A stretch of DNA of 64,000 bases from Anaerolineales bacterium (GTDB taxonomy: Bacteria; Chloroflexota; Anaerolineae; 4572-78; NAK82), in assembly GCA_020343875.1 (NCBI GenBank), contig CP070811.1, positions 3,601,127 through 3,665,126 of the forward strand. The letters are read 5' to 3'. A model generated the notes under the pieces. The model was not told the DNA's origin, did no database searches, and saw nothing but the letters and a program-made list of their open reading frames with translations. Shown piece by piece: positions 49,378-63,405 of the stretch (position 1 is the first letter of the stretch; every line of letters begins with the position of its first letter). The translations under genes and the position numbers were made by a program.

Positions 49378-50283
49378 CTACAGAGTTGGCAGCAAATACT
49401 CGTACGCACTCAGGGCGGCCTTGGCGCCTTCGCCGGCTGCCACCAAGACTTGCTCAGCATAAGTATCCGTCACATCACCGGCAGCGAAGATGCCGGGGAC
49501 GCTGGTACGATTGCGCCCATCAACCTTGATACGACCCTGTGTGTCAAGGTCAACCAACTCAGCTACCATGTCCGAGTTGGGAATGAGGGCCATCTCGATG
49601 AAAGTCCCGTCAGCGCTAACCTCTGCTTCCTGGCCTTCAGGTCCTTGCACGGCCACACGTTCCGCGTAGTCCTCGCCCAGAATCTCGATAACGCGGTAGC
49701 CTTCCAAAATAGTGACGTTTTCGGCTTCTTTCAGCTTTCTACCCAGGGTCGACTCCAAGACTCCAGCCCTCGGCCCCACCACATAGACATGTTCAGCCAC
49801 CGTTGACAGTTCGGCCGCCGATCGTAACGCCAGGTCGCCGTCCCCAATGACAGCGGTCGTCTTGTCTATGAAGAGAGGGGCATAGCTAATAGCTGAGTAG
49901 CAAAGCCCACGCATCAAGAGTTCTTTCTCACCCGGCACGTTTAAGCGCTGGTGGGTGGTGCCGCTGGCTACGACCACGGCTTTAGCCAAGAGTCCGCCGC
50001 CTCGCCTGGCATGCACAGCGAATCCGTCCTGGTGCCGGCTGATACGATCAACCGGTTCCATGTGGCGGGCAAAGTCAAGGTACTCCAGCTCAGCCCTAAA
50101 CTTGCCAACGATTTCAAGCCCTCGGACAACCTGATAGTCTTCCACGCCAGGCAATTCCAGGCGAAAATTGGTCTTGCCGCCCAAGTCCTTCGACACAAGC
50201 AGGACGTTAAGCCGTTTCCGGATGGCATAGATAGCTGCGGTGAGTCCTGCGGGCCCCCCTCCGACGACGATCAAATCGTACAT
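49378..50283 (-). CDS. TrxR-like FAD/NAD(P) oxidoreductase without the CxxC
   Basis: About 301 residues with an FAD-binding GxGxxG (DLIVVGGGPAGLTAAI), an NAD(P)-binding site (TTAVIGDGDLALRSAAEL) and the closing VPGIFAAGDVTD. The redox-active CxxC expected in the NAD(P) domain of thioredoxin reductase is replaced (GLCYSAISYAP), so it cannot reduce thioredoxin in the usual way. It may be a flavin-based NAD(P)H dehydrogenase or ferredoxin reductase type. ATGATG lies at 50286-50281; the second ATG is better spaced from GGAGGT. It lies between malic enzyme and metVF. Confidence 0.85.
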   Translation of the reverse strand: MYDLIVVGGGPAGLTAAIYAIRKRLNVLLVSKDLGGKTNFRLELPGVEDYQVVRGLEIVGKFRAELEYLDFARHMEPVDRISRHQDGFAVHARRGGGLLAKAVVVASGTTHQRLNVPGEKELLMRGLCYSAISYAPLFIDKTTAVIGDGDLALRSAAELSTVAEHVYVVGPRAGVLESTLGRKLKEAENVTILEGYRVIEILGEDYAERVAVQGPEGQEAEVSADGTFIEMALIPNSDMVAELVDLDTQGRIKVDGRNRTSVPGIFAAGDVTDTYAEQVLVAAGEGAKAALSAYEYLLPTL

Positions 50284-50349
50284 CATTTCACCTCCAAATG
50301 TTAGCACATCCTATCCGGTTTTGCCAGTCTGGTGACCATAAAGTCGATC

Positions 50350-51779: not shown

Positions 51780-52700
51780 CTAAACCCGCAGATAAGAGTC
51801 GGTGTAGATGATATCATTGTAGAGAATCTGCACCGTCTTGAAGATGTCCGCTTGCTCGGGATCATCCATATCCACATCATCAATGGTGAGTCTGTCCATA
51901 GCGGCGGTCTTATCGTAGAGGGCGAGAAGCAGCTTGCCGATGCCGGTGCTATCATCCCTCTGGTTCACAATACGCAGGAACTCTTTGAGTTGCACATCCA
52001 GTGGGTCAGCGATGGCATAGTCCACGCCAGCAGCCATCAGCATCACGCAATACGTGCGATTGATCAGGGGCCGCATAGCACCAGGTACCGCATTAGATAC
52101 GTTGCTCAGGCCGGTGTTGGTCATGGGTGGGGGGTCGCCGGCGACTTTGAGAATCCGCACCGCCTCCACACACTCAGGGCAGTATTCCTGGCAACCACTC
52201 ACCGTCAGGACCAATGGATCTATGAGCAAGTCTTCCATGGCGATATCGAGCTCCATGGCGCGGGGAATGAGCTTCTCCAAGGCGATGTTCACCCGCTCCT
52301 CAGCACCAACCGGGATGCCCCCTTTTCCCATAGTGAGGGCTATCAGTTTAGCATTGTATTCCTTGGCCAACGGCGGAACCTTCTCCAGCCGTTCCTCCTC
52401 AGCGGAGGTGGAATTGATGATACACTGGGCCTTGGCCACCTTAAGACCTGCTTCAATTGCAGCCAGGTTGGTGGTATCAAGAGAAAGAGGCACATCCACC
52501 ACTTCTTGGACCCCCTTAACCAGCCAAGGCATGATCTCATGGCCTGCCTTCTTCTGAGGCCCGATGTTCAGATCCAGAACATGGGCGCCGGCCTCAACTT
52601 GCTTTACTGCTAAGTCCTGGAAGAACCTGATGTCGCGCGCGGCAACGGCATCTTTGACTGCTTGCGAGATGATGTGAATGTTTTCTCCGATGATGTACAT
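51780..52700 (-). CDS. acsE: Methyl-THF:corrinoid iron-sulfur protein methyltransferase AcsE
   Basis: A 306-residue TIM-barrel pterin-binding enzyme that moves the methyl group from methyl-THF to cob(I)amide in AcsCD. The pterin-binding elements GAHVLDLNIGP, LSLDTTN, IINSTSAEE and TNTGLSNVSNAVP are all present. Slightly longer than the Moorella enzyme (262 residues), mainly at the C-terminus (YDKTAAMDRLTIDDVDMDDP). GGAGGGT precedes the ATG. Confidence 0.96.
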   Translation of the reverse strand: MYIIGENIHIISQAVKDAVAARDIRFFQDLAVKQVEAGAHVLDLNIGPQKKAGHEIMPWLVKGVQEVVDVPLSLDTTNLAAIEAGLKVAKAQCIINSTSAEEERLEKVPPLAKEYNAKLIALTMGKGGIPVGAEERVNIALEKLIPRAMELDIAMEDLLIDPLVLTVSGCQEYCPECVEAVRILKVAGDPPPMTNTGLSNVSNAVPGAMRPLINRTYCVMLMAAGVDYAIADPLDVQLKEFLRIVNQRDDSTGIGKLLLALYDKTAAMDRLTIDDVDMDDPEQADIFKTVQILYNDIIYTDSYLRV

Positions 52701-52753: not shown

Positions 52754-54832
52754 TCATCTAACCGATTGCATATCTCGGTCCGCCAACACCTCAGCCACCG
52801 AGGGGAACTGAGCCAACTCGGTGTGGGGTAGGAAAAGAGCCGAAGTAAAAGCCTCATAGAAGCTGTTGTCGGCCGAGAGCTCCAGGTAGGTCATTCCTTG
52901 AGCCGCTTCGCCTATTTGTTGACGATACTCCCGATTGAGAAGCGCCAGCAATGCACCCTGCAAGGCAGTATTGCCCAGGAAGTGGAATTTCTCCCAGGGT
53001 AGGTCGGGTAGCAAGCCAATCTGGACCGCTTTCTCAATGTTGATGTACTGGCCAAAAGAGCCTCCAATCAGCACCCGCTCGACCATGCTCAGGTCAATGC
53101 CCACGCTCTGGGCCAAAACGGTGAACCCCGCATAGATGGCACCCTTGGCCCGGATCAGATTGTCAATATCCACCTTGGTGATCACGATGTCGTGGCCCTG
53201 CTCCGTCTGGTCCGCCCAGGCGACGACATATTCAGGCCCATGTTCGCCCCGGCGGATGCGGGAAGAACCCAAATCGAAGTTCAGGTTGCCCGCTTTGTCT
53301 ATTACGCCGGTGATAAACATTTCCGAAAGCAACGAGATGAGCCCTGAGCCACAAATGCCACGGGATGGCGTAGGCTGACCCTGGGCTTCGAGCTTAGGAT
53401 TGGAGATCACCCGGTAAGTAGGCTCGTAGGTTTCGCCGTTGATCCACACTTCCTCAATAGCGCCAACAGTGGCGCGCATACCATCTCGTACCCCGGCCCC
53501 TTCAAAGGCAGGGCCGGCAGAGCAAGCACAGCTGATCAACCAGTCGCAGTCGCCCAACACCATCTCCCCGTTGGTGCCCACATCCAGGAAGAGGGTAAGA
53601 GCGCTGCTGTCGCACATTTGTGAGCCGATGACCCCGGCCGAGATGTCGGCGCCCACATAGCTGGCCACACCTGGCAAGCAGTCCACATTGGCCTGAGGAA
53701 AGATGTTGATGCCTAAATCGCTGGCAAGGGCAGGAGGTGGGTGATTGATGGTCGTAACAAAGGGCTCCAATCGAATCGAGCTAGGAGGCAAGCCCAACAG
53801 CAAGTGTATCATGGTGCTATTGCCAGCCACCACCATCTTGTAGATCTCGGACGGGCTGATCTTGGCCCGTCGCGCTGCCCGCTCGAGCAGCTCGTTGATA
53901 GTGCCGACGACCAGGGATTGCAGTTCTCCCAGACCATCATTTTTGCTGGCATAGATAATGCGCGAAATGACGTCCTCACCACGCTTGATTTGACCGTTAT
54001 ACTCAGCCGCCTTGGTGGCTACTTCGCCGGTCAGCAAATCCACCAGGTACAAGCTGACGGTGGTGGTGCCAATGTCAACAGCGGCGCCCCACAGATGCTC
54101 GGTGCGACCGGGCGGCAGCAAGTCAATCAAGCGCGCTGGCCCATCAGGACGATCCCAGATGTCTATCTCGACGACAGCATTGACAGCCCAATTGTGCTGG
54201 CGGAGCATGGTCCCGACCCGGCGCAGGGTGGACAGGTCGGCCATCAGGTCAACGACACCGGTGCCGTCATCAGCAGCCGATTCTTGCTTCATCCAAGTAC
54301 CATTGCCCGAATCCCATTGGCCAAGAGATGACGAAGGCGCACTGGCCATAGCTCGTTTCAGGCGTGACCAGTCATCGGTCTGATCGACCATACTGGGTGG
54401 ATCAAGGGTCAGCGGCAGCAGGCGCACCGACTGGTGCTGGAGCGGGTCGTAGGTGAAAGGCAAAACTATTGGGGTGGCCGTCTTGTCAGTTACCAGGCGT
54501 CGCTCAATCTTCTCCTGCACAGGAACGGTGACAACCACATCCCCTTCCAGCACCGTCTGACAAGCCAGGGCATAGCCAGCTACCAGATCCTCGGAAGTGA
54601 GGCGCAACGTGGAGCGGCGACGGATGCCGGCCCCACCATCTTGCACAATAACGGCACAACGGCCACAGCGACCCTGGCCGCCACAGGGCATATTCAGGTC
54701 AAGACCCACCTGGCGCGCTATCTCAGAAATAAGCGCTCCGGTACGAGCTTGAACAGTCTGGCCGGATGGCTCAAAACGTACGCTGTGCTCAGCGATGATT
54801 ATCCTCCGAGTACTATTCCCCGGCAGGGCCAC
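52754..54832 (-). CDS. acsV: Reductive activator of the corrinoid protein (RACo, AcsV)
   Basis: A 692-residue ATP-dependent reactivator. The N-terminal [2Fe-2S] ferredoxin domain has Cys50, 56, 59 and 91. A linker with a low-complexity insert (about 150-205) is followed by the ASKHA/DUF4445 ATPase part (GAAVDIGTTTVSLYLVDLLTG, VVAGNSTMIHLLLG, FLDVGTNGEMVLG). It returns oxidised Co(II) CFeSP to Co(I) using ATP. The start is a GTG close to GGAGGT. Located between acsC and acsE. Confidence 0.94.
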   Translation of the reverse strand: MALPGNSTRRIIIAEHSVRFEPSGQTVQARTGALISEIARQVGLDLNMPCGGQGRCGRCAVIVQDGGAGIRRRSTLRLTSEDLVAGYALACQTVLEGDVVVTVPVQEKIERRLVTDKTATPIVLPFTYDPLQHQSVRLLPLTLDPPSMVDQTDDWSRLKRAMASAPSSSLGQWDSGNGTWMKQESAADDGTGVVDLMADLSTLRRVGTMLRQHNWAVNAVVEIDIWDRPDGPARLIDLLPPGRTEHLWGAAVDIGTTTVSLYLVDLLTGEVATKAAEYNGQIKRGEDVISRIIYASKNDGLGELQSLVVGTINELLERAARRAKISPSEIYKMVVAGNSTMIHLLLGLPPSSIRLEPFVTTINHPPPALASDLGINIFPQANVDCLPGVASYVGADISAGVIGSQMCDSSALTLFLDVGTNGEMVLGDCDWLISCACSAGPAFEGAGVRDGMRATVGAIEEVWINGETYEPTYRVISNPKLEAQGQPTPSRGICGSGLISLLSEMFITGVIDKAGNLNFDLGSSRIRRGEHGPEYVVAWADQTEQGHDIVITKVDIDNLIRAKGAIYAGFTVLAQSVGIDLSMVERVLIGGSFGQYINIEKAVQIGLLPDLPWEKFHFLGNTALQGALLALLNREYRQQIGEAAQGMTYLELSADNSFYEAFTSALFLPHTELAQFPSVAEVLADRDMQSVR

Positions 54833-54892: not shown

Positions 54893-56239
54893 CTATCCCC
54901 ACTGCATCTTGAGGAAATTGGGCAGGTCCACCGCCTCGCGCGGGCCAACGTTGATCTCCCAACCCGGCAGTTCCTCTTCCAATTCGCCCATCAGCACTGC
55001 CACGTGGCCAGGGATGACGATGCGCTGATGGCTCAGTTTCTCCGCGACACCAGTGGTCTTCACGCTCTTGGCAATCCGCTCGGCGTCAAACTTGCCGGCG
55101 GCCCAGGCGGTTAGCACACTCATACCTTCAGCGTCAGCGACCAGCAGCCAGCCTGGGATGCCGCTGCTCTCGATCTCATTCGCCACCGAGAAGTAGGTGA
55201 TGGAGAAATTGGTGGTGACCATCAGTGGATCGCCTGGCTTGGGGTTGTTAATCTCATAGATGCCAGGCTTCACCTGAATGGGCTTTTGCGGATCCGTAAA
55301 GATGTTAGCTCGCATCACTAGCAACGGATAGACGGTGCCGGAGCTAAAGCGATCCAAAACCACGAACCCGGCATACTTGGCAATGTGCTGACCAGCCAAG
55401 ACCGGATCATCGCCCGCAAAGGCAATGATGGGATAGCCCACATTACGCTCGTTATGCTTCAGGGCCAGGCGCCGCAGTTGGGTAAAGGCTGCCAGGCTAC
55501 TGTCATAGTCACGTACACCCGGGTCAAGCACGATATCTTCTACCCCGGCCCCCTTAACCTGCTCAGCCAAGGCTGCCAGCGCATCCAGGTCACCCCCAGC
55601 TGCACGCACCGCCAGCGGGACCTTATATTGGGCCGCCAGCTTGGCCATGGCCTCCCAGTTGTCAGGGGTAGCGGCCCAAAGTAATGATTGAGTGCCTTGG
55701 GCCGCTGTTAAACCGGCCTCAGCCGCGGCTGGATCCTCAACCAACAAGACAAGGGGCAATGGGCAGGCAGATTTGACTGCGGCCACCGTGGCTGCGAAAT
55801 CACCACCAGCAGCTTCAACAGCGACACCATTCATGGTGAGATTCATACCCACATAGTCCACCATGTATTCGCCGACCGCTTTTGCCACCTCGGCAGCGTC
55901 AGCCTGGGTGTCTTTGACACGCACAAATAGACCCGGCTCATGATAGAAGGTCTTTTCGTGTCGGAAGAGCACGGTCTCGTTGCCTACCTCCAGTTTGCGC
56001 CCGTTGGCCGAGATGGTGATGAGCCGAATCGGGGGTGCAGCCGAGGCCTCAAGTTTGGCCTTCGACTCCTCTTCTACATAGGGACACTGAGCCAACACAG
56101 CCTGCTTCTGACCCAGCTTCATAGCAAAGGCCAGGCAGGTGGGAAAACCACACTCCTTACAATTAGCGTGCTTCTTCACCTCAGGATTCTTGCTACTACC
56201 AGGAAGAAGTTTGTAGATTTCAAGGCCAGACAGAGCCAT
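54893..56239 (-). CDS. acsC: CFeSP large subunit (AcsC)
   Basis: A 448-residue corrinoid iron-sulfur protein subunit. The N-terminal [4Fe-4S] motif has Cys27, 30, 35 and 52 (NCKECGFPTC ... AQCPYV), then a TIM barrel and a C-terminal B12-binding domain. It carries the methyl group to acetyl-CoA synthase. GGAGGTAAATC precedes the ATG. Confidence 0.97.
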   Translation of the reverse strand: MALSGLEIYKLLPGSSKNPEVKKHANCKECGFPTCLAFAMKLGQKQAVLAQCPYVEEESKAKLEASAAPPIRLITISANGRKLEVGNETVLFRHEKTFYHEPGLFVRVKDTQADAAEVAKAVGEYMVDYVGMNLTMNGVAVEAAGGDFAATVAAVKSACPLPLVLLVEDPAAAEAGLTAAQGTQSLLWAATPDNWEAMAKLAAQYKVPLAVRAAGGDLDALAALAEQVKGAGVEDIVLDPGVRDYDSSLAAFTQLRRLALKHNERNVGYPIIAFAGDDPVLAGQHIAKYAGFVVLDRFSSGTVYPLLVMRANIFTDPQKPIQVKPGIYEINNPKPGDPLMVTTNFSITYFSVANEIESSGIPGWLLVADAEGMSVLTAWAAGKFDAERIAKSVKTTGVAEKLSHQRIVIPGHVAVLMGELEEELPGWEINVGPREAVDLPNFLKMQWG

Positions 56240-56352: not shown

Positions 56353-57321
56353 TTAGCTTGTTACGCCTGATTTGCTCATCAACACGTCAATCATCCCCCG
56401 CACCCGCTTGACCGACTCGGGATGGCGCAGCACCACGATGTCGGCCCCTGATTCAACAAGAGTGCTGGCAGTCAGAGTTTCCCAGTTGATGGCCCGCTCA
56501 GCCCAATCGCCCCAGGCCTGGGGGACACCTTCGCCAGCGCGGGCCTCTTTGGCACGCCAGGCCTCTTCGCCAGGGGTAACCAGCATGGGCTGTTGGGTCA
56601 TGCCGTCACCTTGCAGGGCCGCCAGCCGCAGGCGCTCCATCACGCTGTAGCCATACTCCATACCGTAACCCAAGGCGCCAGTAGTCGGATCCATCACGAT
56701 ACGTTCCAAGGGCAATCCCATGTCGCTGATAAGAATGTTGAGCTGCTTGGCCAGGTTGACGTCCATAGCAGTACGGGCATTTACTAAATGGCCGTGGGCC
56801 AGCGCAGCGGCGACGATGGTGCGATAGTTCTTGTCCTCGCACACACCTAGCACGAAGTTCTCACCCTTTCCCTCCTCAGCTACAGCCACCAGAACGTCAT
56901 TGTCCAAGTCGGCCTGGCCCGGCCCGAAGACAATCAGGGGCAAACCAGTGGCATCCAGCACATGGCGTAAGACTTGCCGTGCATAGTCAGGGCTTAGCTC
57001 GTCGTGCAGTGAGAATTTGAGCAGAATAACGTCAGCGCCTGCCTCCGCCGCCGCTTTGGTCCAGGCGGCAACATCTTCGGTGACATCGCCCCACGCCTCG
57101 AGCAATACGGGCGACCAGTCGACGGGCTTCCGATCCTGCACTTCGATAGCGATGGCAGGTGGGCGGGGAATCTCGCCCTCAAAATGGAGAAACGGGAGCG
57201 TAGTCTCTCCCCCCACCGTGACGGTTTTGGCCCGGGTCCCCCCTTCGGCGGCGGTAGCGCCCAGAGTGATCTCGCGGACTTTACCGTTCCACTTCTCTTT
57301 GGGGACTTCGATGGTTGGCAT
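56353..57321 (-). CDS. acsD: CFeSP small subunit (AcsD)
   Basis: A 322-residue TIM-barrel partner of AcsC. Motifs include VILLKFSLHDELSPDYARQV, IVMDPTTGALGYGMEYGYSVMERLRL and MLVTPGEEAWRAKEA, characteristic of the subunit. The ATG at 57321 with AAGGAGG upstream is preferred to the TTG at 57330, which touches the ribosome site. The 113-bp gap to acsC shows no gene. Confidence 0.96.
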   Translation of the reverse strand: MPTIEVPKEKWNGKVREITLGATAAEGGTRAKTVTVGGETTLPFLHFEGEIPRPPAIAIEVQDRKPVDWSPVLLEAWGDVTEDVAAWTKAAAEAGADVILLKFSLHDELSPDYARQVLRHVLDATGLPLIVFGPGQADLDNDVLVAVAEEGKGENFVLGVCEDKNYRTIVAAALAHGHLVNARTAMDVNLAKQLNILISDMGLPLERIVMDPTTGALGYGMEYGYSVMERLRLAALQGDGMTQQPMLVTPGEEAWRAKEARAGEGVPQAWGDWAERAINWETLTASTLVESGADIVVLRHPESVKRVRGMIDVLMSKSGVTS

Positions 57322-57345
57322 CTGCGACAACCTCCTTTAGTAATG

Positions 57346-57876
57346 TTATAAAGAATGGGTCTCTGAGTGATCTTTGGTAGCGTTTGAATAGCGTTCCATA
57401 AATGTTTCAATGGGCGACTTGCGAGGCGCGCTATGCCCTTTGTCAGCCAAATCAGCTTCGGACTCGGCCGCCAGATAGTTCAGCACATCCGCAAAACGCA
57501 AAACAGCCGCCGGCCAGCTCATACCGCCTGCGTGGTGCATCAAATAGATCTCACGCACCCCTCGATCGAGCATAATCTGGACGGCAGCCGGGGCAGGTAT
57601 ATCGGGAGGGACTTCGGGGATGTCGGACCGCATCACGTCAGCCACGGTCAGGCTCATAAGTTCATCCATATCTACCCCTGACCTACCATACACAGCCACG
57701 GCCTCGCGCCGGCTGAACATGCCCACAGCGTGGCCGTGGCCGTCAAGTACAATGAGTGATTCGAGTCTTTCGCGGAGTAGAGTGCGCACCGCTTCCACAA
57801 GAAGCGTATCGGCCTGGCAGGTCATGACTCCGATGTGCATCAAATCACGCACCAGTTTGGTAGTCACCCAGCTCAC
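57346..57876 (-). CDS. CBS-pair protein 2 of the CODH/ACS operon
   Basis: A 176-residue protein with two CBS motifs (LVRDLMHIGVMTCQADTLLVEAV ... and TVADVMRSDIPEVPPDIPAPAAV...). CBS pairs bind adenosine nucleotides or SAM. The first motif shares MHxGVxTC with CBS protein 1, so the two come from a duplication. A C-terminal tail (HSAPRKSPIETFMERYSNATKDH) is extra. The ATG overlaps the previous stop (ATGA). A regulatory role for acetyl-CoA synthesis is an inference from position. Confidence 0.87.
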   Translation of the reverse strand: MSWVTTKLVRDLMHIGVMTCQADTLLVEAVRTLLRERLESLIVLDGHGHAVGMFSRREAVAVYGRSGVDMDELMSLTVADVMRSDIPEVPPDIPAPAAVQIMLDRGVREIYLMHHAGGMSWPAAVLRFADVLNYLAAESEADLADKGHSAPRKSPIETFMERYSNATKDHSETHSL

Positions 57877-58283
57877 TTCCCCTGCTTCTCAGTAGAGCCA
57901 GCCATCTCACGCACTACGTCACTCAACGAAAGCACACCGACTGGCCGATTAGGGGTTCGTCCTCCCTGCACGATAAGCAATCGATGGATACGCTTATCAA
58001 GCATGATCTGAACCGCGACGTTCAGGGGGATATCACCGCTGATGGTGACGACATCAGGAGTCATGATTTCGTCGGCGGTACGATACACCCAATCGCCCTG
58101 CACGTAAGCGCGGGCCAAGTCGGTTTGAGAGATAATCCCCTCAGCTCGCCCGCTCTCATCCAAAACAAATATAGCATTGATAGCGTACTCACGCAAACGC
58201 CGGGCAATGTCACCAGCGCGTTCATCAGCCCAACAGGTAATCACACCCCGGTGCATTACATCGCGGACCAGCTTGTGGCCCAT
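57873..58283 (-). CDS. CBS-pair protein 1 of the CODH/ACS operon
   Basis: A 136-residue protein of two CBS motifs only (LVRDVMHRGVITCWADERAGDIA, and TADEIMTPDVVTISGDIPLNVAV). The ATG at 58283 follows AAGGAGAG; the frame extends to 58307 into the hairpin and is rejected. Located immediately after a large intercistronic hairpin and before its paralogue. Nucleotide sensing is likely; its target is unknown. Confidence 0.87.
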   Translation of the reverse strand: MGHKLVRDVMHRGVITCWADERAGDIARRLREYAINAIFVLDESGRAEGIISQTDLARAYVQGDWVYRTADEIMTPDVVTISGDIPLNVAVQIMLDKRIHRLLIVQGGRTPNRPVGVLSLSDVVREMAGSTEKQGK

Positions 58284-58304: not shown

Positions 58305-58343
58305 CACAAGTAGCAGGCAGCTGGCTGCTGCCTGCTACTTGTG
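58305..58343 (-). repeat. Large intercistronic hairpin after acsB
   Basis: Perfect 16-bp arms (58305-58320 and 58328-58343; CACAAGTAGCAGGCAG and its complement) with a 7-nt loop. No T-run follows in the transcription direction, so it is more likely an RNA stability or processing element than a terminator. Confidence 0.85.
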
Positions 58344-58370: not shown

Positions 58371-60644
58371 CTAGAACATCGGGTCCATCATCAGGGCGGG
58401 GTGACCGACCCGCTCCAGATGGGCCAGCAACTCTTCTACGTCAGTGCATACAGTTTCATCGGCGATCTTATCGATAAGATCTGGATCGCCCTCACGTGCA
58501 GCCACCGTCGTAAACTCGTCAGGCATGCTCTGTTTGAGGAAGCTGCTCATCCACACCACCCGCTTGAACCCACCATCGGCCGAGATGAACTTGGGGCTGG
58601 TGAGATAGAATTTGCCCACACCCATCACGCCTGGGCTTTGCAAACCGCCGCCTGCAATGCCAGCCAGGGTGCTGAAGGTCATGCCCGCCGGCGTCATGCT
58701 GGGATCTTCTCGCGAGACAACCATGACCCCATTGGCCTCAGGTACGACCATGACGATGCACTCGAAGCAACCGCAGGCGGTCATGGGGTTCTCCATGATG
58801 GAGTACATAGTCACTTCCTGAACAGAGCCGTGGGAGGCCTGCCCAGCATACTGATTGGTGCCCTCCCAATAGCCTTTCAGCTCGTCAATCGCTCGGCCTT
58901 TGGTGATGGGCTGGTTGGGGCCAGTCGGGTTTATCTCGAAGCTGGCCTTGCAGTCGAGCCAGTTGTAGGCGCCACACAGGCCCAACCGCTCAGGGGAGAC
59001 AATGCAGACGTGATCGGGGGCAAAGCTCTGGCAGAGGGTGCACGAGTAGAACTCATCCACTCGGTCATCGGTCAGATCGGCCAGTCGCTGGTTGCGGTAG
59101 TCGAAGGCAATCCGTGCCTGAGCCAGCCAGTCGGCATGTAATTCAGGATCACTGATGATTTTCACCTGGACTTTGTCAACAATGCTGCCGAAGTCAGCGT
59201 GGAAGCGGGCGTGCAGAATATCTCCGAAGTGCCGCAGGGTGAAGCCCTTTTCAGCGGCTGTCTTGCTGATACGGATCCAGGCGATGTCGCGCTGGCCGAT
59301 GTGCTGGATACCCGAGGCGCCATTGATAAAATAGTGCACCTGGCGCTCCAGCACAGGCTCAAAGTCGAGCTGCATCTTGCGGCCTGCGACCTCGATGACG
59401 ATGCCCACGTCCATTGCGCCGCCGGCCTCCGCTTCGTCGAAGTCAGGGCCAATAACCTCGATCTTGCCATCTTCCACTTCGTCCATCTCGACCATACGCA
59501 GGTACTCGAAGGCACGCGAATTTTTGCCCCCAAATTCCACCCGCATATCAGCCCGGCGCACAACCTCACCCTCGAAGGCCGAACCATAGGGAACCGGTAC
59601 CGGCACGTCGGCCACCTGCACCTTGACGCCCCGCACTTCAATGGCCTTCTGCACCAGTCGCTCGGCCTTTTGCATATCGTCCTCGCCCGGGATTTCGTTC
59701 CAAGGCATGGAGATGACATGTTCGTAGCTGGTGACGCCCGTGGGCAGGATTTGAGGAATGACGGTATCAGCGATGACCGGGAAGCCATAGCTAATGGCGC
59801 CGGCAGCGGTGGCATATTTCAAATCGTCCACCTCGCCCAAGGCCAACACAAAGGCAAAAACACGCGCCCGGTTATACAGCAAGATTTCGCGAGATTGGCC
59901 ACCCTTCATACCCCCAAAGGTCAAAGCCGAACGGGTGGCAAAGCCCAGGGCGTAAATGGCGCTCACGGTGTCGGTGCCAAAGGGAACAATGTAGGTATCG
60001 TAGCCCATCTCCACCCCTTCTTCTTGCAACTGGTGGATAATGGAACGCCCATTGACATTGCCGCACAGGAAAGTCAAAATGTTGCGGCGTTGTAACTCGC
60101 GCACAATCTTGACAGCGACTTCGTTGCTCTTTGCGCAACCCACAATGGCGGCAAAGCCGGGCATGCGCCCATCCACGAGCTGGATGCCCCAGCTGCGGAG
60201 CTGGATATCGTCTATGGGGCCATTCAGATGCCCATCGCCATTGCTCCCCAGGGCCGGGTAAGCGGTGCCACCGGCCAGTTCAAATCCGGGAAACCGCTCC
60301 GGCTGATGGCCCTGCACAAACCGAACAGCCTCGATAGACTCTTCGGCCAGCAGAGTGGCGATCCCGCTGTCAAGCGTCTCTCCCAGGTAGGGAGTCCACC
60401 TTTGCTTGGACGGAACCGGGTGCAGCATAGACCTGGCCTGCTCCAGCACTGGTACCAGGTCGCCCAAGGTACTTACCTCCCGACCGGTCAGGCCCAAGAT
60501 GAGGGGCATGTAGTAGGCCGTATTGGGGAACGCAACCGGCGTTTCGCTGCCCTTTTCGGCGATGGCCTTTTGCAGGAGCGTCTCGGCCTCGTTGACAATC
60601 ATGTTCGCGCCAGTGATGGCACGCGTAGCAATATATCGACTCAT
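58371..60644 (-). CDS. acsB: Acetyl-CoA synthase (CODH/ACS subunit alpha)
   Basis: A 757-residue bacterial-type ACS that joins methyl, CO and CoA at a Ni-Ni-[4Fe-4S] A-cluster. The five cluster cysteines are in SCTLCQSFAPDHVC ... LGLCGAYN (about residues 533-560) and CGCFEC (about 625). The N-terminal 300 residues form the CODH-contacting domain, absent from archaeal CdhC. Slightly longer than Moorella AcsB (729). The ATG follows AAGGAGAGAAGC. Confidence 0.97.
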   Translation of the reverse strand: MSRYIATRAITGANMIVNEAETLLQKAIAEKGSETPVAFPNTAYYMPLILGLTGREVSTLGDLVPVLEQARSMLHPVPSKQRWTPYLGETLDSGIATLLAEESIEAVRFVQGHQPERFPGFELAGGTAYPALGSNGDGHLNGPIDDIQLRSWGIQLVDGRMPGFAAIVGCAKSNEVAVKIVRELQRRNILTFLCGNVNGRSIIHQLQEEGVEMGYDTYIVPFGTDTVSAIYALGFATRSALTFGGMKGGQSREILLYNRARVFAFVLALGEVDDLKYATAAGAISYGFPVIADTVIPQILPTGVTSYEHVISMPWNEIPGEDDMQKAERLVQKAIEVRGVKVQVADVPVPVPYGSAFEGEVVRRADMRVEFGGKNSRAFEYLRMVEMDEVEDGKIEVIGPDFDEAEAGGAMDVGIVIEVAGRKMQLDFEPVLERQVHYFINGASGIQHIGQRDIAWIRISKTAAEKGFTLRHFGDILHARFHADFGSIVDKVQVKIISDPELHADWLAQARIAFDYRNQRLADLTDDRVDEFYSCTLCQSFAPDHVCIVSPERLGLCGAYNWLDCKASFEINPTGPNQPITKGRAIDELKGYWEGTNQYAGQASHGSVQEVTMYSIMENPMTACGCFECIVMVVPEANGVMVVSREDPSMTPAGMTFSTLAGIAGGGLQSPGVMGVGKFYLTSPKFISADGGFKRVVWMSSFLKQSMPDEFTTVAAREGDPDLIDKIADETVCTDVEELLAHLERVGHPALMMDPMF

Positions 60645-60661: not shown

Positions 60662-62650
60662 TTAGACCATTTCACCGTACAGGGCAGCCTGTCGCTCGGC
60701 GAAGGGCAGTTCTACCAGTTCCAGCATGCGTGCGTCGCCGCTCTTACCCCACTTGCTGGCGTCGTATTTGGGGAGCTTAAGAGCTTCACGCCGCTCGTCG
60801 ATGTGAGCCAGGGTATTCTGCAAGATTTCATCGGGGTCGGTGATGAACTCCAGGCGGCCGCCAAACTTGTCGCGCCAGCCTTCGCTGATGAGGCGGCTGA
60901 CTTCCTCGCTCCCTTTGACCGGGTTGGTGGTACCCATAATCACATACGCGCCCGAAGCAGCCGCATAAGTAGCAATCGCCATGGCCTTTTCACTCATCCA
61001 CTCGGGTGCCATGCCGACCGCAGGTATGTCGCTGATGTCGTCACCCAAGCCGCCTTCACTGGCCATTTGGCTCAACACGGTCAGGATACGGCTGTTATCC
61101 ACGCAGGAACCCATATGCAGCACGGGGGGCATACCTACAGCCTCGCACACCTCACGCAAGCCAGGGCCTGCATATTCCAGGGCCGCCTCACCCAGTAGAT
61201 AGCCTTCCTTGGCGCTGGCAATTGCGCCGCAGCCAGTCTGTACCACCAACACATCATTCTTGAGGAACTCTGTGACCAGGTATCGGTGCTGCCAGTCCTG
61301 AGTCACGCGCGGGTTGTTGCAGCCAATATTGGCAACCACCCCCCGGATACGTCCAGCGGCGATGGCATCGTTGAGCGGCCGGAAAGAACCTCTCAATACA
61401 CCGCCCAGGGCATAATTTACATACTCGTGAGAGAAGCCGGCCACCAGATCAGAGCTGACATCGGGGATATGGGTCTCACCCCGATTGGCGAAGTTGTCAA
61501 TGGCCCGGCGCACGATTTGCCTGGCGATTTGCATGGCATGGTGCTCATCGAACTCTATGTGGGTGGCGCCGCTGATTTTCACCTTGGGAGAAGTGGTGAT
61601 CACCTCGGTATGGAACTTCTCGGACAGCGGAACCAGGGCCTGCATGATGCACTGCACGTCCACCACCATAGCCTCGACGGCGCCGGTCAGGATAGCCAAC
61701 TCCTGGTGCAAGAAGTTGCCGGCGCTGGGTACCCCCTGGCGCACCAGCGTCTCGTTGGAAGTGCAGCAGATACCAGCCAAGTTGATGCCCTTGGCTCCCT
61801 TGCTGCTGGCATACTCAAGCAACTCCGGGTCGCCAGTGGCAGCCAGAATCATCTCGCTCAGAGTAGGCTCGTGGCCGTGGACAACAATATTAACTTCGTC
61901 ATGCTTGAGAACGCCCAGGTTTGCCTGCCCAACCAGCGGGCTGGGGGTGCCAAAGAGCACATCCGAGATGTCGGTGGCCAGCATGCTCCCGGCCCAACCA
62001 TCTGAAAGGGCGCATCGGATAGCAGCATCCAAGATGTGATCAGGCTCCTGGTCATCACCCATGTGAGTCCGGTGCAAAACATCCACTACTTCGCGATCAA
62101 TGCCACGCGGGACGTAGTTCAATTCTCGCCACAATTTCTGTCGCTTGGCCGGAGCCCGCTTGATATAGGCAACCTCACCGGTTTGCTGACCGAACTGGGC
62201 AATAGCAATGTCAGCCACGTCAGAGGCGATTTCTTCCACCGAGCGACCGTCCACAGGAACGCCCAGCGTCTCGGCCATGCTGTACAGCTTGTAAGGATCA
62301 CGCACTTTGTAATCGGAGCCTTTTACGGTGGCAGCCGCTTTGAGCGTAAAGGCCATGTCACGTCCGTGGTCGGAGTGAGCCGCCGCGCCAGCAGCCACGG
62401 CCCGGGCAAAGTTGCGGGCCACGATCGTTTCTACGGTGGCACCACACACGCCAACCTGGCCCTCTTTCACCACTCGGCAGGGTCCCATAAAGCAGTTCTT
62501 GCAGCAGAGGCCGTCGGCCCCAATCGGGCAAGGTGACATGGTATCGGCCCGGCTAAAGGCAGTGCTCAAACCAGATTCCTCGGCTAGCTTCAGCATCTGA
62601 ATGGCAGCCGGGTCTGCGCTACGCTCCTCAGGTGTTCGTGCTCTAGGCAT
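60662..62650 (-). CDS. acsA: Ni-containing carbon monoxide dehydrogenase catalytic subunit
   Basis: A 662-residue CODH that interconverts CO and CO2. Cys41, 49, 50, 53, 58 and 69 form the D and B clusters (CPIGADGLCCKNCFMGPC). C-cluster ligands appear in GICCTSNETLVRQG, ANIGCNNPRV, VQTGCGAIAS and HMGSCVDNSR. It delivers CO through a tunnel to AcsB, encoded 18 bp downstream. AAGGAGTACTTATT precedes the ATG. It could equally be named cooS. Confidence 0.97.
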   Translation of the reverse strand: MPRARTPEERSADPAAIQMLKLAEESGLSTAFSRADTMSPCPIGADGLCCKNCFMGPCRVVKEGQVGVCGATVETIVARNFARAVAAGAAAHSDHGRDMAFTLKAAATVKGSDYKVRDPYKLYSMAETLGVPVDGRSVEEIASDVADIAIAQFGQQTGEVAYIKRAPAKRQKLWRELNYVPRGIDREVVDVLHRTHMGDDQEPDHILDAAIRCALSDGWAGSMLATDISDVLFGTPSPLVGQANLGVLKHDEVNIVVHGHEPTLSEMILAATGDPELLEYASSKGAKGINLAGICCTSNETLVRQGVPSAGNFLHQELAILTGAVEAMVVDVQCIMQALVPLSEKFHTEVITTSPKVKISGATHIEFDEHHAMQIARQIVRRAIDNFANRGETHIPDVSSDLVAGFSHEYVNYALGGVLRGSFRPLNDAIAAGRIRGVVANIGCNNPRVTQDWQHRYLVTEFLKNDVLVVQTGCGAIASAKEGYLLGEAALEYAGPGLREVCEAVGMPPVLHMGSCVDNSRILTVLSQMASEGGLGDDISDIPAVGMAPEWMSEKAMAIATYAAASGAYVIMGTTNPVKGSEEVSRLISEGWRDKFGGRLEFITDPDEILQNTLAHIDERREALKLPKYDASKWGKSGDARMLELVELPFAERQAALYGEMV

Positions 62651-62706: not shown

Positions 62707-63249
62707 CTAATAACGTCGGAATTCCCCACTCAATTTCAAATCCACCTGGTTGGTCTTGGTCACTCGAACGCCAAGCGCATTCCAGGCCGGGTCCTTGGCA
62801 TTGGGCAGCGGGGAAGGCGAAGAGAAGATAGCCCCGTTGCCCGCTTGATACCCTGCCTGTTCAAGTATGCGGTTGATGTCGTCAACCGAGATAGCTGACG
62901 GTTCGTACGCCACCTGAACCTGCCGCCAAGCCGAGCTGGCCCACACTTCCTCCACCCCCGGCACCGCCAGCAGCGCCTGGCGCACGGCGATCACGTGATG
63001 ATCAGCATACATCGAAGGAACATCAAAAAGCGCGTTTTCCATATCTGTCTCCTTTTTAATCAGCTGTTGAGCTAGTGCCATCACGGCTTTGGCTTCGTAA
63101 CGACGGTGTCCTCCCAAAGTCTTGACCGAAGGAAGTTTGCCTGCCTCGGCCCAACGCGCAACCGTGCTGGGAGACACCTGAAAAATCTCCGCCACTTCGG
63201 CACGCGTTAGAAGACGGGCACCAGAATCTTTCAGTATGTTCATAGGCAT
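62707..63249 (-). CDS. HTH (BldC/excisionase-type) regulator fused to a cysteine-less HMA-like domain
   Basis: A 180-residue regulator. Residues about 10-60 are a MerR/BldC-type winged helix (LLTRAEVAEIFQVSPSTVARWAEAGKLPSVKTLGGHRRY). Residues about 75-140 follow the ferredoxin-like HMA pattern (FDVPSMYADHHVIAVRQALLAVPGVEEVW ... YEPSAISVDDINRILEQAGY) but the metal motif MxCxxC is MYADHH. First gene of the CODH/ACS cluster, 56 bp before acsA. The ATG at 63249 has GGGGGAG upstream; the frame to 63366 crosses the repeats and is rejected. Ligand unknown. Confidence 0.82.
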   Translation of the reverse strand: MPMNILKDSGARLLTRAEVAEIFQVSPSTVARWAEAGKLPSVKTLGGHRRYEAKAVMALAQQLIKKETDMENALFDVPSMYADHHVIAVRQALLAVPGVEEVWASSAWRQVQVAYEPSAISVDDINRILEQAGYQAGNGAIFSSPSPLPNAKDPAWNALGVRVTKTNQVDLKLSGEFRRY

Positions 63250-63318
63250 TTTTGCTCCCCCTCGGCGACAAAGACACACGCCTTGCCCGTCATCATTGGC
63301 AGGTGGCGTGTGCAATTC

Positions 63319-63343
63319 TTGCGCGTTTTGCGCGTTTTGCGCG
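63319..63343. repeat. Three TTGCGCG repeats upstream of the CODH/ACS regulator
   Basis: TTGCGCG begins at 63319, 63328 and 63337, an exact 9-bp period. It lies between a possible -10 box (TATATT, minus strand, 63360-63355) and the start codon at 63249, in the 5' leader. A candidate autoregulatory site. Confidence 0.65.
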
Positions 63344-63405
63344 CTACGCACACTAATATACCCCACATTTGGCCGGGGAAAAAGATGCAGATTGCCTATA
63401 TTTAC

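Follow-up and report, generated by a model that had tools for sequence, protein, structure and literature searches.

CBS-domain genes between acsB and acsD of Anaerolineae, and a candidate regulatory role for their products at the acetyl-CoA synthase step

Genes for small CBS-pair proteins are associated with the CO dehydrogenase/acetyl-CoA synthase (CODH/ACS) operon in the class Anaerolineae, and the association is both conserved within the class and specific to one position, between acsB and acsD. Two such genes lie side by side in the window, by which we mean the whole 64,000-nucleotide stretch of DNA that was analysed, from an Anaerolineae-class bacterium with a 5.35-Mb genome (G000). Judging from sequence, we put at about an even chance the reading that their products, CBS1 and CBS2, act in trans as Bateman-type regulatory subunits at the ACS/corrinoid-protein step, with CBS1 the adenylate-sensing partner and CBS2 more concerned with docking. 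Control of CODH/ACS is usually ascribed to expression, metal loading and redox potential; conserved CBS genes at acs suggest that acetyl-CoA synthesis also responds to energy or redox state through a so far undescribed control. Text searches of a literature that takes in few subscription papers gave nothing that describes CBS proteins alongside CODH/ACS, alongside pyruvate:ferredoxin oxidoreductase (PFOR) in Chloroflexi, or alongside crotonyl-CoA carboxylase/reductase (CCR). If true, the proposed control would offer a direct means of studying how energy-limited anaerobes fix both the direction of the Wood-Ljungdahl pathway and its rate.

The two CBS genes and their operon position

From open reading frames and NCBIfam/Pfam matches, the gene order on the minus strand of the window is cooS-acsB-cbs1-cbs2-acsD-acsC-acsV-acsE-like. 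These encode the CO dehydrogenase catalytic subunit (cooS/acsA, 60662-62650, 662 aa), the acetyl-CoA synthase subunit (acsB, 58371-60644, 757 aa, NF040764 at 974 bits), CBS1 (57873-58283, 136 aa), CBS2 (57346-57876, 176 aa), the small and large subunits of the corrinoid iron-sulfur protein (acsD, 56353-57330, 325 aa; acsC, 54893-56239, 448 aa), the reductive activator of the corrinoid protein (acsV, 52754-54832, 692 aa) and a methyl-THF:corrinoid protein methyltransferase (acsE-like, 51780-52700, 306 aa). The same-strand cluster also holds malic-enzyme-like, thioredoxin-reductase-like and MTHFR-like genes. The thioredoxin-reductase-like flavoprotein (49378-50307) carries CYSA where CxxC is expected, and similar genes occur near acs genes at four other loci (L080, L082, L105 and L138). 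Directly upstream of cooS, positions 62707-63366 encode a protein in which a BldC/MerR-like helix-turn-helix (HTH) is joined to an HMA metal-binding domain; it may regulate the operon in response to metals.

CBS1 starts at an ATG at 58283, preceded by a AAGGAGAG-like Shine-Dalgarno sequence, and stops at 57873. Its stop shares four nucleotides, GTGA, with the GTG start of CBS2 at 57876, as is usual for translationally coupled genes. Each protein has two PF00571 CBS domains and no other Pfam domain; in a whole-genome CBS scan the second domain of CBS2 scored 23.4 bits against a cut-off of 24. The two proteins share 32% identity over 134 aa (E = 5e-21) and are true paralogues. The sequence-only reading, which had described two paralogous CBS-pair proteins in overlapping frames between acsB and acsD, each with the motif MHxGVxTC, was borne out on all of these points: the motif is MHRGVITC in CBS1 and MHIGVMTC in CBS2. 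When CBS1 was used as a query on genome contigs, it returned a single close relative (L001, an Anaerolineae MAG) and distant CBS proteins.

The spacer between acsB and CBS1 contains a perfect minus-strand hairpin (58305-58343, 17-bp stem, 5-nt loop) with no T-run behind it. Just 3' of acsB, perfect stems of at least 8 bp were present in 29 of 108 loci (the window, L177, L083 and others), with approximately none expected from shuffles. Their sequences are unrelated between loci although their place is the same, and they occur with or without CBS genes. Such hairpins may set the expression of acsB relative to the genes downstream.

Among the 396 class genomes, acsB was detected in 155, and we mapped 115 of its loci with the window proteins and CBS-group profiles, leaving the window itself out of the counts. 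At 101 of these, acsB and acsD lie on one contig, and at the other 14 acsD is off the stretch. One to three CBS genes, every one co-oriented with the operon, lie between acsB and acsD in 53 of the 101 loci; AcsB and AcsD are fused in 14, none of which has a CBS gene between; and 34 have neither. Median spacings are 122 nt from acsB to CBS and 119 nt from CBS to acsD. CBS genes were found at other operon junctions almost never, although one locus (L188) has a fused AcsB-AcsD and two CBS genes between acsD and acsC. Three of the 14 loci whose acsD is off the stretch also have CBS genes. Elsewhere in the home phylum, 1 of 20 acs loci from other classes has CBS at that position (L227), and none of 20 acs loci does in the phylum sampled through one Deltaproteobacteria genome (L003).

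The census rules out chance adjacency of CBS and acs genes. It also answers the check proposed with the original observation, a search for CBS genes flanking acsB or acsD in other genomes: a lack of co-occurrence with acs genes in relatives, which would have refuted the idea, was not what we found, co-occurrence being strong and position-specific. Since 34 of the 101 loci lack both a CBS gene and the fusion, CBS proteins are dispensable for CODH/ACS as such; the well-studied acetogen enzymes work without a CBS subunit. Two further features were seen at these loci. In ten (L180, L181, L183-L190) acsB is interrupted by in-frame insertions close to residues 544 and 633, and the three insertions scanned (L188:4624-6225, L188:6517-8046 and L184:3933-4514) match intein splicing domains, two of them also LAGLIDADG. 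In one family (L102, L126 and L287), a gap of about 1 kb between CBS2 and acsD holds a gene that reads, by its sequence, as ferredoxin-NADP-reductase-like (FNR-like).

Two operonic types and their conserved residues

Two types can be told apart among the operonic proteins: acs1, which resembles CBS1 and is about 135 aa long, and acs2, which resembles CBS2, is about 165 aa long and ends in a conserved tail. We built a tree from 114 CBS pairs and 148 columns, few columns for that many rows. In it, acs2 forms one clade of 33 rows (UFBoot/SH-aLRT 100/93), all at acs loci. The acs1 type is not a single acs-only clade, having five label changes and two non-acs members nested inside; this scatter indicates that acs1 was recruited or lost several times, or that it has recent ancestry in common with other CBS genes. 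Adjoining the group that contains the window's CBS1 are its closest tree neighbours, CBS1-like modules with an N-terminal XRE-type HTH; three genomes of a single family have these, away from acsB (L191, L192 and L193).

An acs2 profile built from operonic members was then searched genome-wide, so that matches were not confined to operons. Matches of at least 149 bits occurred in 47 of 396 genomes, 46 of which have a detected acsB (Fisher P = 5e-20). The remaining genome (G180, 70% complete) has acsD directly downstream of the CBS gene, and further acs2 members fetched after the profile search likewise adjoin acs genes. Where acsB is off the contig, acs2 was still found with acsD or acsD-acsC in four of four cases examined (L286, L287, L288 and L292). 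One locus has acs2 near acsB with no acsD on the stretch (L109, in G193), and another has acs1 with acsB alone (L147, in G008).

These distributions bear on whether the CBS genes are general-purpose passengers, held in place by operon inertia and with a function unrelated to ACS. CBS genes are common, many of them without a known partner, and the window's genome alone has approximately 41 CBS domains. However, acs2 is confined to acs loci in all of the many class families that have it, even though mean column identity is about 48% and the operon has been rearranged repeatedly, and the acsB-acsD position is specific. We therefore regard a passenger origin as very unlikely.

Residue counts were taken from 29-row alignments of each type and from an alignment of all CBS pairs (acs1, n = 32; acs2, n = 33). 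The Cys of GVxxC is invariant in acs1 (32/32) and acs2 (33/33), that is, in all 65 operonic proteins, as the sequence-only reading had anticipated. That reading had also taken the motif His as conserved and the motif as special to these two proteins, and neither claim held. The His is present in 21 of 32 acs1 and just 6 of 33 acs2 proteins, a variability that rules it out as a functional residue. The Cys recurs in PFOR-fused modules (7/8), CCR-fused modules (10/17) and non-acs CBS genes, and MHxGVxxC itself is found in one CBS module elsewhere in the window's genome. The motif is thus a signature of a wider family rather than of acs.

The positions associated with nucleotide binding differ between the two types. 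CBS1 has two ribose-binding-type motifs of the form G-x-x-[ST]-x-x-D (GIISQTD and GVLSLSD), and the ribose-type Asp is kept in 28 of 32 acs1 proteins at the first site and 26 of 32 at the second. In CBS2 the first Asp is replaced by Glu (GMFSRRE) and the second site is Asp; across acs2, Asp is found in 3 of 33 at the first site and 12 of 33 at the second. The PFOR- and CCR-fused modules keep the ribose-type Asp at both sites with few or no exceptions. Another Asp, that of MxD in the second CBS domain, is invariant in acs2 (33/33) and present in 18 of 32 acs1 proteins. CBS2 also ends in a conserved, basic tail of about 35 aa (PRKSPIETFMERY), with a helix predicted at 155-171. Because acs2 has mostly lost the nucleotide-contact Asp positions, it is unlikely that both proteins sense AMP/ATP.

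The invariant Cys raises the alternative of a redox switch, in which this Cys of the first CBS domain would become oxidised or linked when conditions are oxic or ferredoxin is low, whereupon the CBS protein would block or protect the oxygen-sensitive ACS or Co(I) corrinoid protein. The Cys is more conserved than any nucleotide-site residue of acs2. It lies, in our own alignment to the published numbering (PMC13121692), two residues after Ile12, an adenine contact of AcuB, and the strand next to it is one whose backbone reads adenine in AcuB. A redox role would also fit the thioredoxin-reductase-like flavoprotein in the operon of the window and of some relatives, and the FNR-like gene that separates CBS2 from acsD in one family. 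However, no second Cys is conserved in the acs1 or acs2 alignment, and the presence of the same Cys in PFOR-fused, CCR-fused and non-acs CBS proteins suggests that it may be a structural signature of the family. A search for zinc or disulfide precedents among CBS proteins, in literature that put most subscription papers out of scope, gave nothing on HRP1 itself. On balance we consider a redox switch unlikely.

Fusions of AcsB to AcsD and of CBS modules to other enzymes

The 14 fused AcsB-AcsD reading frames (L120, L121, L122, L124, L133, L135, L137, L138, L141, L143, L155, L180, L188 and L190) have Pro/Ala-rich linkers of 146-281 aa with a short conserved helical motif (SIRRALEAALRELGG-like). 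A CBS domain inside the linker was ruled out: there was no CBS-profile hit, and the one linker run against Pfam gave no match. A nearby CBS gene and the AcsB-AcsD fusion partially exclude each other (Fisher P = 2e-4, in a test that ignores shared ancestry), and the exclusion of acs2 and fusion across acsB-positive genomes is weak (P = 0.07). The partial exclusion keeps a tethering or docking role among the explanations to be weighed.

In its simplest form, such a role would make the CBS2-type protein an adaptor that holds AcsB and AcsCD together, or orders their assembly, without sensing any ligand; elsewhere the AcsB-AcsD fusion would replace it. None of the fused loci has a CBS gene between, the ligand-site Asp of acs2 is mostly lost while the C-terminal tail is conserved, and CBS2 remains linked to acsD where acsB lies elsewhere, all of which this explanation accommodates. 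It accounts less well for the 34 loci with neither CBS nor fusion, for L188 with both, and for the CBS1-type proteins, which keep their ligand-site residues; the Fisher test, moreover, takes no account of ancestry, and the genome-wide association is weak. Pure assembly or docking is, in our estimation, rather unlikely. A related proposal, drawn from the same sequence features, is that CBS2-type proteins are dedicated non-nucleotide gating and docking subunits, CBS pairs without their former nucleotide sites, which through the Cys and the tail would control access of the methyl-corrinoid to the A-cluster of ACS, with the Pro/Ala-linked AcsB-AcsD fusion as the covalent alternative. This we hold to be improbable, on a par with the redox switch.

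CBS pairs of the same family also occur fused to enzymes. They are found at the C-terminus of PFOR (POR_N, POR; alpha/gamma) at seven loci (L267, L268, L271, L278, L279, L282 and L284) and, usually as two pairs, at the C-terminus of CCR at nine (L266, L269, L272-L274, L276, L277, L280 and L281), the identity of CCR being given by TIGR01751 at 561 bits (cut-off 379). In one family they are also joined to an XRE-type HTH. The PFOR- and CCR-fused modules resemble CBS1 and CBS2 in belonging to the MHxGVxxC family, and they are attached to CoA-ester enzymes. They differ in lying in cis, with an intact ribose-type Asp and on tree branches of their own, whereas CBS1 and CBS2 are separate proteins. 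We read these in-cis fusions as a sign that modules of this kind target CoA-ester enzymes in the class, and they suggest a control logic common to its CoA-ester metabolism.

Predicted folds, proposed role and known CBS systems

AlphaFold2 models of CBS1 and CBS2, built from the alignments of the two types, are standard CBS pairs (pLDDT 90.9 and 91.8), and in VIA-align both match many solved CBS pairs at Z > 14. Among the nearest folds to CBS1 are AcuB (2o16, Z = 19.1) and MJ0922 and MJ0100 (both approximately 18.8); against the AMP/ADP-bound AcuB structure 9s4v, it aligns over 130 aa at 2.2 Å (Z = 18.9). Those near CBS2 include the CBS pair of CcpN (3fv6, Z = 17.4), MJ0100 (16.8) and AcuB (16.4). 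Fold matches of this kind do not identify a ligand.

CBS repressors of the CcpN type are known, and their match to the CBS2 fold, together with the HTH-fused near relatives of CBS1 in one family, would fit a pair that regulates expression and not enzyme activity, perhaps by partnering a transcription factor. Neither CBS1 nor CBS2 has a DNA-binding domain by Pfam, however, and the other fusion partners of the family, PFOR and CCR, are enzymes and not regulators. Control of expression is accordingly a highly improbable role for the pair.

Regulation of the enzyme step is the reading that we prefer. The sequence-only reading had proposed that the two proteins may sense AMP/ATP, SAM or a redox state and set flux through ACS or the corrinoid protein; a sensory or regulatory role there is still the best account, helped by the PFOR and CCR fusions and by the AcuB precedent, and the part in which both sense AMP/ATP is unlikely. 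CBS1, to judge by its motif residues alone, would bind an adenine nucleotide of the AMP/ADP/ATP type in two intact sites and so report the energy state; SAM, a CoA ester or no ligand at all would be less likely alternatives. CBS2, with its ribose-type Asp mostly lost and its invariant Cys, invariant Asp and basic C-terminal tail kept, would be mainly a docking or adaptor part in contact with AcsB or, more probably, with AcsD/AcsC. As the adenylate state, or possibly the CoA-ester or redox state, shifts, the pair would speed up or slow down methyl transfer or the formation of acetyl-CoA, in a manner comparable to the indirect control of acetyl-CoA synthetase by AcuB in Bacilli.

Among other known systems, MJ0100, seen with SAM/MTA bound, is among the closest to CBS1 in both fold (Z = 18.8) and sequence (E = 2.5e-12). 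The CBS pair of MJ0100 is joined to other domains in its parent protein. CBS-CP12 of cyanobacteria is likewise a CBS pair tied to control of carbon fixation, and its structures match in fold (5nmu, 5nvd and 5npl, Z approximately 15-17). It acts on the Calvin cycle through CP12, a domain that CBS1 and CBS2 do not have.

AcuB is the nearest functional analogue, although by this comparison CBS1 and CBS2 are not AcuB. AcuB binds ribose through Asp52 and Asp122, and in its AMP-bound form it inhibits the deacetylase, AcuC, that reactivates acetyl-CoA synthetase (PMC13121692); Ap4A has also been described with AcuB (PMC13039410). Like AcuB, CBS1 is a CBS pair of closely similar predicted fold that keeps both Asp positions of the ribose-binding type. 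Unlike CBS1 and CBS2, AcuB, an energy sensor of Bacillus subtilis and Geobacillus, has a C-terminal ACT domain and acts on AcuC; no ACT domain is present in CBS1, whose 136 aa leave no room for one, or in CBS2, where Pfam finds only CBS and the tail is helical. CBS1 and CBS2 are encoded instead beside CODH/ACS, an unrelated Ni-Fe-S enzyme of the Wood-Ljungdahl pathway. The AcuB precedent establishes that energy charge can act on acetyl-CoA synthesis through a CBS pair.
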